Assembly: GCA_017504305.1 (NCBI GenBank) | Contig: JAFVRJ010000016.1 | Location: 1 to 64,000, forward strand | From: Clostridia bacterium | Lineage (GTDB): Bacteria > Bacillota > Clostridia > Christensenellales > DTU072 | DNA: 64,000 nt | Direction of reading: 5' to 3' | Shown: piece by piece, positions 612-56,263 of the stretch | Position numbering within the stretch: the first letter of the stretch is position 1 | Layout of the letters: the number at the start of each line of letters is the position of its first letter | Position numbers and translations under genes: made by a program | Notes under the pieces: model-generated | Databases searched by the model: none | What the model saw: only the letters and a program-made list of their open reading frames with translations | What the model was told of the DNA's origin: nothing

Positions 612-1196
612 TTATAAATGATTTTTAGTTAAAACTGCATTTATCCAGCCGTTATTTCTTTTAAGTAAATCTTCCGAATTATAAATTTCCACAATGGACA
701 GATTTGAATTTTTGCAAAGTTCCTTTAATTTTTCTTCGTCAATATATTGATAAAATCTACCATTTTCAATATTTGTGCCATTTCCATATTTCATAGACAA
801 ATAAATATGTCCGCCCACTTTTAATGCTTTATTAAGATTATCAAAAGCAAGTGGTAAGTTATTAGAGTGTAAAAGAGAGGCACAAGCCCAAATGCCGTCA
901 AACGTTTCAATATAAGGAAGATTATGAAAATCACATAATTCTACGTTTAAGCCGTTTGCTTTTCCATTATCCACAAATTCGCTCACATTATCTATGCCTA
1001 AAACGTTATATCCCTTGCTTTCAAAATAAAGCATATCACGACCACTACCAAAGCCAATATCTAATATTTTTGCCCCTTGGAAAAGATATGGTAAAAATCG
1101 GCTATAATGTTCAGTCATATCAACTTTTTGGGTGGTAGAAATGTATTCTTTGTAATTAGTAGAATAGTATTGTTTTGTTTTATAACTTGCACTCAT
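612..1196 (-). CDS. Class I SAM-dependent methyltransferase, small-molecule type
   Basis: 194 aa. Motif I is clear (ILDIGFGSG, residues 44-52), followed by the acidic residue D69 ending beta-2 (VLGIDN), a motif III-like region around D89 and a motif IV region ACASLLHS (104-111). There is no NPPY or DPPY motif, so an amino DNA methyltransferase is unlikely; the region after motif I resembles TehB/Methyltransf_11-type enzymes acting on small molecules. It overlaps the HNH gene by 17 nt and is followed after 17 nt by the nucleotidyltransferase, so the three are almost certainly one transcript. Its SD (ATAGG) is weak, consistent with translational coupling. Target unknown. Confidence 0.8.
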   Translation of the reverse strand: MSASYKTKQYYSTNYKEYISTTQKVDMTEHYSRFLPYLFQGAKILDIGFGSGRDMLYFESKGYNVLGIDNVSEFVDNGKANGLNVELCDFHNLPYIETFDGIWACASLLHSNNLPLAFDNLNKALKVGGHIYLSMKYGNGTNIENGRFYQYIDEEKLKELCKNSNLSIVEIYNSEDLLKRNNGWINAVLTKNHL

Positions 1197-2151
1197 AATA
1201 GAACCTATCTAAATAATTGTTTTTGATAGAAATTTCCAAGTCAGATTTTAAACTACCGCTTAAAATATTAACTAATTTTAGATTTCTTTCTTTTAATGTT
1301 TCAATAGTTTGCTCGTCAGGGATAGAATTGCTTTTTGAAGAATTGCGTGCCCTTGAAGTTATAACTAAATTCCAAATATCGTCTGAATACATAAAACTCC
1401 AAGGAATAACGTGGTCGATACTAATATCGTCATCATTTAATTCTTCGCCTGTATAAAAATCTATTGCCTTACCCGAATATTCTAAAAGCAAAGCGTCTTT
1501 ATATTTTTTCAAACTGTTTCTACGTAATTTTGTTTCGCTTATGCCATTTACCTTACTTGCAATTTTAGGGGAATAGTTAAATTTTTCTAATAATTGAGTC
1601 CATTTATAATTCATTAACTTTGAAATGATTATAGAGTATTCTGCAAGTAATTGTGCGTTTTCTTTGGTAAATATTATCTTTGAAATTTTAGGCGTATATT
1701 CGTAAATATCAATTTCGGAATCGTTTGCAATCTTAAAACGCCAGCAAACGTTCTCGTGTAAAGTTTTTGTAATATGTTTAATTATTTTTTGGTATGTATC
1801 AGGGGCTGTTCTTTTTATTTCTATAATCGCTTCGTCATACCATTTAGGAATTGCCGAATTAGTTATATTTTTATATAAATCAATTAAAACTTTTGTATCT
1901 TTACAAATAACAGGCTCTTTATTTGCGTAAGGGGCTTGTTTCAAATTAAAATAGAAAATTTGATTCCAATAGTATTTCAGCATACATTTAGAAATATCGT
2001 CAAAATCTATAACGAAATTATTATCTACTATTTCATATTGAGAGAAAGCGATATTTTCTATCAACGCACTACCAAATGCCAATTTATATGTGTTGTCGTT
2101 GTGCATCTCGTCTAATATCTTTAACCATTGATTTACATAGCTTGGAATCAT
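1180..2151 (-). CDS. HNH-type endonuclease
   Basis: 323 aa. The C-terminal part holds an HNH core: YTGEEL (233-238), then SIDHVIPWSF with D246-H247, IWNL with N261, and NSSKS at 270-274. The two zinc-knuckle cysteines common in this family (CxxC before the DH) are replaced (DFYTG), so any metal site is probably only the catalytic one. The N-terminal 200 residues (start IPSYVNQWLKIL, then NTYKLAF) are probably a target-recognition or regulatory region. The cassette's first gene; ATG at 2151 sits 7 nt after GGTAAGG-type sequence and 33 nt after a strong promoter. Possible role: restriction-like nuclease in a defence cassette (inference). Confidence 0.8.
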   Translation of the reverse strand: MIPSYVNQWLKILDEMHNDNTYKLAFGSALIENIAFSQYEIVDNNFVIDFDDISKCMLKYYWNQIFYFNLKQAPYANKEPVICKDTKVLIDLYKNITNSAIPKWYDEAIIEIKRTAPDTYQKIIKHITKTLHENVCWRFKIANDSEIDIYEYTPKISKIIFTKENAQLLAEYSIIISKLMNYKWTQLLEKFNYSPKIASKVNGISETKLRRNSLKKYKDALLLEYSGKAIDFYTGEELNDDDISIDHVIPWSFMYSDDIWNLVITSRARNSSKSNSIPDEQTIETLKERNLKLVNILSGSLKSDLEISIKNNYLDRFYYECKL

Positions 2152-53576: not shown

Positions 53577-54392
53577 TTAGATTTCGGAGTTTACGCCTTG
53601 TAAAAACGCTTTTAGCTTGGGTGACTTCGGATTGTCGAATACCTCGCTCGGAGCCCCCTCTTCTTCCACTAAACCCTCTGCCATAAACACAATTTTATCC
53701 GATACGTTCTTTGCAAATCCCATTTCGTGCGTAACGATAATCATTGTCATGTTGGTGGATTCTTTGAGCTCTTTTATAACCCTTAATACCTCGCCGGTAA
53801 GCTCGGGATCAAGCGCCGACGTGGGCTCGTCAAAGCACAATACCAAGGGCTTGAGCGCCATCGCTCTTGCGATTGCAACACGTTGGCATTGACCGCCTGA
53901 AAGCTCACAGGGATAGGAGTCTTTCTTTTCGGTAAGTCCAACTTTTTCTAAAAGCTCAAGGCCCTCTTTTTCAATTTCAAGCTTTCTTTCGTGAACGGCT
54001 CGCTTAAGCTCTCTGCCTTTTAAGCCCTGCTTCTTCAAAGAGGTTTCAGCCAAAAGTCCGGGGGCAAGCGTTACGTTCTTCAAAACGGTGTACTGCGGGA
54101 AAAGGTTAAAGGACTGGAATACCAAACCAAAATTAAGTCGCTTTTGTCTTATTTCGGCGTCACTGTATTGATTGGCTTTAGCTGCGTCAAAAAGCAACTC
54201 CCCTTCCAAAAGCATCTGACCACTATCGGGCGTCTCGAGGAAGTTGATACTGCGTAATAACGTGGTTTTACCGCTTCCCGAAGATCCGATTATAGTTAAA
54301 ACCTCGCTCTTTTCGATTGAAACATCTATCCCTTTTAGCACCTGTAATCCGCCAAAAGATTTTGTAAAGTTTTTAATTTCCAAATAACTCAT
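53577..54392 (-). CDS. Polar amino-acid ABC transporter ATPase (GlnQ-type)
   Basis: 271 aa. Walker A IGSSGSGKTTLLRSINFLE, signature LSGGQCQRVAIARAMA, Walker B VLCFDEPTSALDPE, H-loop VTHEMGFA, as in the polar amino-acid family. About 25 residues longer than the usual 240 through an insertion around 110-150 (LKKQGLKGRELKRAVHERK). Last gene of SBP-permease-ATPase; 3 nt from the permease stop. Confidence 0.94.
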   Translation of the reverse strand: MSYLEIKNFTKSFGGLQVLKGIDVSIEKSEVLTIIGSSGSGKTTLLRSINFLETPDSGQMLLEGELLFDAAKANQYSDAEIRQKRLNFGLVFQSFNLFPQYTVLKNVTLAPGLLAETSLKKQGLKGRELKRAVHERKLEIEKEGLELLEKVGLTEKKDSYPCELSGGQCQRVAIARAMALKPLVLCFDEPTSALDPELTGEVLRVIKELKESTNMTMIIVTHEMGFAKNVSDKIVFMAEGLVEEEGAPSEVFDNPKSPKLKAFLQGVNSEI

Positions 54393-54395
54393 AGT

Positions 54396-55079
54396 TTATT
54401 CCTTATAAAAATTAAGCTTCTTTTCAAGGAACGCAAACAATACCGTTAAGAGTCCATTGAAAATTAAATAGAACGCTGCAGCGTAGAATAAAGGCGTCAA
54501 TACAACGAATTCGTTTACCAAGGATTCTGCCATTGTGTAAAGCTCTATAACGCCTGCAACCGAAGCAAGAGCAGTATCTTTAACCAAAGTTATAACTTCG
54601 TTACTAACGGGAGTTAAGGTCTTTTTAACAAGTTGTAAGAAGATAATTTTTCTAAATATTTGCCCTTTAGTCATACCTAAAACGGCACCGGCTTCATATT
54701 GACCTTTAGGCATACCCTCTATTGCGCCACGGAAGATTTCCGAAAAATAGCAAGCGTAGTTCAAAATAAACGCTAAACTTGCATATACGAATAGTAGGCT
54801 CTTCATTTTAATGCCAAAGAAGGAAATAATCGTCGTGTTACCTACGTTAAATAGATAGTAAGGTATTAAGGTAACAAGCAGTACTTGAAGCATCAACGGC
54901 GTACCGCGAATAATCCAAACAAGGCCTCGACAAAAGGCTTTGAGTGGAATAAATTTGGATCTTGATCCAAACGATATAACTAATCCAAGTGGTAAAGACG
55001 CCAAAAGGGTTATGGCAAACAATAATAATGTTTTGCCAAAACCCTCACAGAGCGCTTTAATAATTTCTAAAAATTCCAT
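54396..55079 (-). CDS. Polar amino-acid ABC transporter permease
   Basis: 227 aa, about five membrane helices. His/Glu/Gln/Arg/opine permease signature: RGTPLMLQVLLV near the start, YFSEIFRGAIEGMPKGQYEAG (EAA loop) and DTALASVAGVIEL. Pairs with the GlnQ-type ATPase; probably works as a homodimer. Confidence 0.94.
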   Translation of the reverse strand: MEFLEIIKALCEGFGKTLLLFAITLLASLPLGLVISFGSRSKFIPLKAFCRGLVWIIRGTPLMLQVLLVTLIPYYLFNVGNTTIISFFGIKMKSLLFVYASLAFILNYACYFSEIFRGAIEGMPKGQYEAGAVLGMTKGQIFRKIIFLQLVKKTLTPVSNEVITLVKDTALASVAGVIELYTMAESLVNEFVVLTPLFYAAAFYLIFNGLLTVLFAFLEKKLNFYKE

Positions 55080-55091
55080 TTTATAATATTA

Positions 55092-55943
55092 TTATTTTTC
55101 GAGAGAAATGTAGTAGTTAGCCATTACGGAGTCGATAACGATAACGTCGAGAGTGCCGGCCTTAAGCTTGTTGTAAGCATCTAATTGAGAGGTGCACTTG
55201 ATATACTCTTTACCGATGTTATTTTTTTCGATTTGAGCTTCGCCTGCAGAGCCGTCTTCAGCACCTGCGATAGCATCTTTCATAGCGTCGATAGAGGTGA
55301 GATTATCAGCATTGTTGCTCATAACTACCGCTACTTGCTTGTTGTTGAGATAAGGTACGGAGATGCACATTTCTGCAAGTCTATCCTCGGTGATGGTGAG
55401 GCCGTTCCATACTAAATCGATTGAGCCACCTTCGAGCATAGCTTCTTTAGCACTCCATTGGATTTCCAAGAATTCAACAACGATGTTGGTGCTGTAAGTG
55501 GTATTGAGATAGTTAAATACCGCTTTAGCAAGGTCAATATCATAGCCCTTGGTGGGAACGTCGTCTACTACGTCAAACGCGATAGGAGCAAATACGGTGT
55601 AGCCGATAACAACCTTATTTCTTGATACGAGGTTGGTCCAGCTTGCATCAGATGCGGAAGCAAAAGGATTAACGGTAGAAGAAGTAACTGCGATTTCACT
55701 ATTCAAGCCGTAAGCGGTTGCAACGGTTTGCATTTCGTCATCAGCGATAGCGATAAGAGCTTCGTTGATTTTGGAGATCAAAGCATTATTGCCTTTTTTA
55801 GCTGCGATACCATATTGCTCTTGAGCAAGAACTAAATCGGTAACTACAACGGGCTTATTGTCTTTTTTGCCACAAGCAACGATAGTTGCTGCAAGCGATA
55901 AAACGATAACTGCTACTAACAAAACTGATAAGAATTTTTTCAT
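55092..55943 (-). CDS. Amino-acid ABC solute-binding lipoprotein, circularly permuted
   Basis: 283 aa. Lipobox IVAC with Cys24, so it is a lipid-anchored binding protein. Residues 109-283 follow the family 3 fold from its usual start (KVVIGYTVFAPIAFD, KGYDIDLAKAV, IDLVWNGLTIT, YLNNKQVAVV) to GTLDVIVIDSVMANYYI, then stop. The segment normally next in this family, YGIAxRKGD ... INEAL ... YGL, occurs instead at residues 44-80, before the fold's start, joined by a Ser/Ala-rich linker 83-108. ATG at 55943 has AAGGAAA upstream. Transport partner: permease and ATPase downstream. Confidence 0.9.
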   Translation of the reverse strand: MKKFLSVLLVAVIVLSLAATIVACGKKDNKPVVVTDLVLAQEQYGIAAKKGNNALISKINEALIAIADDEMQTVATAYGLNSEIAVTSSTVNPFASASDASWTNLVSRNKVVIGYTVFAPIAFDVVDDVPTKGYDIDLAKAVFNYLNTTYSTNIVVEFLEIQWSAKEAMLEGGSIDLVWNGLTITEDRLAEMCISVPYLNNKQVAVVMSNNADNLTSIDAMKDAIAGAEDGSAGEAQIEKNNIGKEYIKCTSQLDAYNKLKAGTLDVIVIDSVMANYYISLEK

Positions 55944-56010: not shown

Positions 56011-56039
56011 ATTATACTTCATTGCGCTAAAGTTGTAAA
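56011..56039 (-). promoter_or_regulatory. Promoter of the amino-acid ABC operon
   Basis: Minus strand TTTACA (56039-56034), 17 nt, TATAAT (56016-56011). Confidence 0.75.
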
Positions 56040-56149: not shown

Positions 56150-56181
56150 AAAAAAATATAAAGGTGCTTTTTAGCACCTTT
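56150..56181 (-). terminator. Terminator after spoVM
   Basis: Stem AAAGGTGC/GCACCTTT with a 6-nt loop, then TATATTTTTTT on the minus strand; begins at the spoVM stop codon. The remaining 56040-56150 stretch is very AT-rich with nothing recognisable. Confidence 0.85.
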
Positions 56182-56263
56182 AATCTTTAGAAAACAAATT
56201 TAGGATTTTTTTGATTATGCCCTTCAAGAAGTTAGGGCAATTGACAACTATTATATTTTTCAT
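56180..56263 (-). CDS. spoVM: SpoVM, 27-residue amphipathic spore-coat anchor peptide
   Basis: 27 codons plus TAA. Residues 10-27, PNFLKGIIKKILNLFSKD, line up without gaps with B. subtilis SpoVM PKFLGGIVRAMLGSFRKD (9 of 18 identical, Pro, both Phe and the KD end kept); both start MK and are amphipathic helices. SpoVM senses forespore membrane curvature and recruits SpoIVA, also encoded here (8055-9527). It lies 42 nt after rpe, the Bacillus position (rpe-thiN-spoVM-rpmB). GGAGGG precedes ATG closely. CATATACT at 56287-56280 resembles a SigE -10, weakly supported. Confidence 0.88.
   Translation of the reverse strand: MKNIIVVNCPNFLKGIIKKILNLFSKD

Follow-up and report, generated by a model that had tools for sequence, protein, structure and literature searches.

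The stretch of DNA that was analysed (hereafter the window) comprises 64,000 nucleotides of a Clostridia bacterium contig and contains, at positions 55092 to 55943 of the minus strand, the gene for a circularly permuted family 3 solute-binding lipoprotein (SBP) of 283 amino acids, which belongs to the class of permuted proteins designated cut type A below. The ATG initiation codon is located at 55943, with an AGGAAA-type ribosome site just before it. The gene is followed on the same strand by those for a polar amino acid ABC permease (54396 to 55079, PF00528) and a GlnQ/TcyN-type ABC ATPase (53577 to 54392, PF00005), and the SBP gene is thus adjoined by partners of the polar amino acid type. 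A promoter-like site, TTTACA-17-TATAAT, is situated about 70 bases upstream of the ATG (56011 to 56039, minus strand), and a terminator-like hairpin of the upstream gene (56159 to 56182, minus strand) parts that gene from the SBP operon, with both of these elements being consensus matches only. A search with Rfam at gathering thresholds brought up no known RNA elements anywhere in the window, and the region ahead of the SBP operon contained nothing convincing. Elsewhere in the window, a 323-residue open reading frame (1180 to 2151, minus strand) contains an HNH-endonuclease-like motif, SIDHVIPWSF...ARNSSKSN.

The SBP begins with a signal peptide and lipobox read from the sequence (residues 1 to 24; 55872 to 55943, with all parts on the minus strand), which ends in ATIVAC and places the lipobox Cys at residue 24. 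It continues with a segment that is normally C-terminal but is now N-terminal (residues 29 to 84; 55692 to 55859), with a junction linker that bridges the original C- and N-termini (residues 85 to 100; 55644 to 55691), and with the former N-terminal part (residues 101 to 283; 55095 to 55643), which includes the usual SBP start VVIGYTVFAPIAF and ends with VIVIDSVMANYYISLEK. An earlier note on this DNA had described the same succession of parts and had interpreted it as a natural circular permutation with its break at VMANYYISLEK / KPVVVTDLVLAQEQ, without duplication or frameshift. Our results bear out this description. The order is that of the 283-residue open reading frame, and the break was correctly identified. 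No part of the domain is duplicated or missing: a second C-terminal segment is absent downstream, where the stop codon lies 12 bases ahead of the permease start, and there is no frameshift.

To locate the swapped pieces, we used a profile built from 42 conventional SBPs with no permuted proteins included. Residues 29 to 84 alone scored 36.4 to 36.7 bits at about positions 184 to 240 of this profile, and residues ~100 to 280 scored 150.8 bits at positions 2 to 178. When the conventional profile was doubled head to tail, the window SBP gave a single contiguous match of 189.3 bits, compared with 151 and 37 bits for the two pieces. Doubling of the profile increased the best single match by 9 to 115 bits for permuted proteins and by no more than 2.5 bits for the 42 conventional proteins. 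In a phmmer search of the PDB, each of the four best chains matched the window SBP as two pieces in swapped order; residues 19 to 175 and 183 to 219 of AncQR, for example, corresponded to query residues 117 to 279 and 32 to 68, respectively. The whole SBP domain of the window lipoprotein is therefore a natural circular permutation. Its fold remains inferred in the absence of a structure, and an AlphaFold prediction based on only two sequences yielded a pLDDT of 35 and a pTM of 0.25.

Pfam PF00497 (SBP_bac_3) matched the former N-terminal part with a score of 64.2 bits, compared with a curated cut-off of 26.4. Both the former N-terminal and the former C-terminal parts are present, covering positions 2 to 178 and 166 to 240 of the conventional-only profile, and the SBP_bac_3 domain is complete, but it lacks the canonical order with the C-terminal part last. 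Given this swapped chain order, the protein is a permuted relative of the PF00497 family rather than a standard member. The Arg and Asp residues of the ligand clamp are retained as R188 in TITEDR (profile column 84, corresponding to R75 of GlnBP) and D271 in VIVIDS (column 170, corresponding to D157 of GlnBP). Conservation of these two positions makes amino acid binding likely, although the ligand is unknown.

We searched for permuted relatives with the doubled profile in 151 genomes of the same order and with a junction profile in two wider samples, one of 341 genomes (class) and one of 398 genomes (phylum). The class sample contained at least 81 junction-spanning genes in at least 73 of the 341 genomes. 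Outside the class of the window, the phylum sample yielded at least 15 junction-spanning places, about 12 of which were permuted; this last figure leaves out tandem or adjacent conventional genes, and 3 of the 12 were judged from the match alone. Since both junction lists were delimited by E-value, the genome and gene counts are lower bounds. Permuted SBPs are thus common in the window's own class, an assignment inferred from related genomes, and rare in the remainder of the phylum sample. We classified 144 related SBPs as conventional (42) or permuted (102), with the latter comprising 38 of type D, 36 of type A, 19 of type B, and 9 of type C. Given that these proteins were gathered in part with a junction query, the ratio of permuted to conventional forms is not a population frequency. 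The permutation was recognized correctly by the earlier note, but it is not a lone case: permuted SBPs form a large group, cut recurrently at four sites, of which the window protein is one member. The note had also suggested looking for homologues of the same order near GlnQ-type ATPases. L105 (SVIP01000002.1), from the independently assembled Clostridiales MAG SIG412, is 70 to 71% identical to the window SBP, has the identical order, and shares the lipobox Cys. Where neighbourhoods were complete, permuted SBP genes were adjoined by permease and ATPase genes, and conventional relatives (L014, L016 to L018, L052, and others) adjoin a permease gene in a like operon setting.

Several of the related genes have further architectures. 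The window genome itself carries a second permuted SBP (L002; G000:C17:84586-85419), which is of type A, belongs to another clade, and has its own permease and ATPase. In L158 (501 residues) and L166 (537 residues), the new C-terminus of a type D SBP, located in lobe D2, runs on into a permease. Four open reading frames of 763 to 1265 residues (L088, L103, L104, and L192) have the architecture lipobox-[C-part][full]n[N-part]-permease, so that the tandem SBP array is itself permuted and fused to the permease. Tandem forms were represented by L184 (SBP-SBP) and L191 (SBP-SBP-permease). No homologue turned up in one scan of viral contigs, and when plasmids were searched for a permuted example with a name, none of the matches was clearly permuted.

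The last profile positions before the new ends fell into tight groups: 26 to 29 for type C, 98 to 119 for type D, 133 to 137 for type B, and 178 to 186 for type A. Mapped via the profile onto E. coli GlnBP (PDB 1ggg), the cuts correspond to residues 18 to 22, 96 to 109, 126 to 128, and 168 to 171, respectively. Both chain ends of conventional SBPs are located in lobe D1; for GlnBP, we take lobe D2 to span residues ~90 to 180 and the hinges to lie at 85 to 89 and 181 to 185. On the basis of this alignment, cuts A, B, and D would be situated in loops inside lobe D2 and cut C in a beta-hairpin of D1, with both hinge crossings being kept in all cases. The possibility that cuts A and D fall exactly at the two hinges, with one crossing, was ruled out by the same mapping, which places them inside D2. 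Since the conventional ends are in D1, cuts A, B, and D imply a shift of the lipid anchor to D2. The note's suggestion of such a shift is consistent with the mapping of the new N-terminus of the window SBP to GlnBP residues 168 to 171, although the anchor geometry is itself inferred. The type D end falls where Pfam PF10613, a glutamate-receptor ligand-binding model, also terminates (residues 211 to 283 of L141 aligned with positions 41 to 112 of 115), and lies near the site at which ionotropic glutamate receptors insert their channel. Median distances from the lipobox Cys to the core were 8, 11, 5, and 17 for types A, B, C, and D, respectively, compared with 15 for conventional proteins. A shorter lipid tether was considered as an explanation and fails for type D; tether length alone does not explain the permutation.

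For phylogenetic analysis, all proteins were first restored to a common order, which gave alignments of 241 to 246 columns and trees with some long branches. A FastTree phylogeny of the 144 SBPs required 24 changes of topology, compared with 81 when the labels were shuffled; overall, the trees of re-ordered SBPs imply about 20 changes of cut site. With a 66-row tree, a single origin was rejected for type A (777 lnL, p 5e-7), type D (802 lnL), and type B (189 lnL, p 5e-4), and was not rejected for type C (p 0.29). In a 52-row SBP tree, the window gene and L105, both of type A, were positioned inside a type B clade with support values of 97/90, 100/95, and 100/99. The permease is untouched by the permutation, and its tree placed the window operon in the identical type B nest (100/99 and 97/93). 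Across the junction, YGL and GYT delimit a stretch of 39 residues in the window SBP, in L105, and in 7 of 8 near type B relatives, and the junction linkers of the type A and type B relatives are similar in sequence, with a common ATDxSW-like core. Given this nesting in both trees and the common 39-residue junction, the window gene was probably re-permuted in place from type B to type A. The most economical interpretation is a single joining of the old ends, with a later shift of the opening from B to A. The window gene appears to have been permuted more than once. The nearest type B SBP is 58% identical to that of the window, and we found nothing intermediate between the two types. In both the SBP and the permease tree, a conventional SBP (L052; G068:C11:356-1162 of its locus) is nested among type C proteins, with the permease tree joining it to type C operons at 100/98 support, and a return to conventional order is possible in this instance.

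The window gene might instead have become type A from a conventional ancestor or have acquired a type A SBP from elsewhere. Type A arose more than once according to the rejection of its single origin, the same genome offers a second type A SBP on contig C17, and a tree constrained to keep the type B genes together, with the window gene and L105 excluded, costs 38.6 lnL with a p-AU of only 0.0499, so that the test for nesting in B is borderline. Both trees nonetheless nest the window gene in type B with good support, the junction linker is common to the window gene and type B, and the C17 paralogue is in a different clade. We consider this alternative unlikely, without dismissing it. A much weaker proposal treats the protein as a C-terminally truncated SBP that carries a decayed or unrelated extension at its N-terminus, a view suggested by the fact that Pfam and NCBIfam match only the former N-terminal part. 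However, the best of 2000 shuffles of the moved segment scored 9.5 bits with the conventional-only profile, far short of the 36.4 bits of the native segment, and dN/dS was about 0.14 in this segment and 0.15 in the remainder of the protein. The moved segment is thus conserved under purifying selection, and we regard this proposal as very improbable. An assembly or annotation artefact that merged two neighbouring SBP genes or fragments is conceivable in draft assemblies (27 contigs for the window genome) but has almost nothing left to support it, given the identical order in the independent MAG, the recurrence of four cut types with lipobox and operon neighbours in many separate assemblies, the lack of a frameshift, and the purifying selection across the moved segment.

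We are highly confident that the window gene encodes the permuted SBP of a one-permease importer, one that was probably re-permuted from B to A within its operon, with duplication as the likeliest route. The product would be an amino acid-binding lipoprotein of an ABC importer, a function and ligand class that are both inferred. Its old ends are joined by the linker, and its new ends appear to have been opened in a D2 loop after the helix that follows the ligand Asp. Since no structural element and neither hinge crossing has been lost, the protein should close on its ligand like a normal SBP, provided that the inferred fold is correct, and the lipid anchor would leave from lobe D2 instead of D1. 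The ancestral operon probably already contained an SBP permuted at another D2 loop (type B), and the step to type A in the window lineage would have transferred some 45 residues from the start of the mature chain to its end, with the junction linker left in place. The likeliest route, for which the evidence is indirect, is an in-frame tandem duplication with subsequent loss of the outer parts; it is favoured by the existence of tandem and permuted-tandem SBPs among the relatives. Fusion of tandem copies with later trimming of the outer portions is among the standard mechanisms proposed for circular permutation (topic page PMC3320104), and its operation here is an inference. More broadly, SBP ends in clostridial amino acid importers may move repeatedly among the four loops within one operon, with direct switches from B to A and between C and conventional forms, a process fed by tandem SBP copies and maintained because it shifts the lipid anchor, or the permease in fused forms, from D1 to D2; we offer this generalization only tentatively and lean slightly against it.

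Circular permutation in natural proteins is, as a rule, a single old event, and we know of few natural proteins that have been cut repeatedly at the same places; one protein family here seems to have been permuted many times. The changes seem recent enough for operons to differ in cut type even where their permeases are related, which makes duplication, truncation, and healing of the old cut directly testable by genome comparison. The permuted proteins provide a natural set with which to ask what chain order means for folding, hinge closure, and docking. In the window protein, Pfam PF00497 and NCBIfam models cover no more than the former N-terminal part; permuted SBPs therefore remain hidden in annotation and pass for plain or truncated SBPs. 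Natural permuted amino acid-binding proteins with ends in lobe D2 could also serve as sensor scaffolds.

In the literature searched, which left most subscription papers out of scope, we found no account of permuted SBPs of type II or family 3, of recurrent cut sites, or of re-permutation. The novelty of permuted type II SBPs is accordingly provisional. A type I protein of Treponema pallidum, TpMglB-2 (Tp0684), is the nearest precedent we found. The report on this protein assigns it and its homologues, which also occur in Gram-positive bacteria, to 'Type Ic / Cluster Bc' with a single natural permutation, for which its authors proposed a link to membrane anchoring (PMC4990184). TpMglB-2 is, like the window SBP, a naturally circularly permuted, lipid-anchored ABC binding protein; however, it has a type I (cluster B) sugar-binding fold, its permuted part is poorly conserved relative to the unpermuted form, and it represents one permutation (PMC4990184). 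The window SBP, in contrast, is a type II, family 3 protein for amino acids with a clearly homologous moved segment, its family has four recurrent cut sites, and its best matches are family 3, type II amino acid-binding proteins, not proteins of the type I fold that Type Ic requires. GlnH/ArtJ/LAO-type proteins (PF00497) share with the window SBP the domain, the ligand-clamp Arg and Asp positions, and the permease and ATPase partners, but differ in chain order and have their N-terminus in lobe D1. Permuted halves of a Thermotoga ribose-binding protein also represent permutation within a binding-protein fold, but these are engineered single lobes of type I rather than the product of a natural gene (PMC9815098). 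The same C-part to N-part junction is contained in one chain in the SBD1-SBD2 tandem of GlnPQ (PMC8025302; PDB 6h30), the only chain among the best matches that aligned across the junction. GlnPQ comprises two complete conventional domains fused to a permease, whereas the window SBP is one permuted domain.
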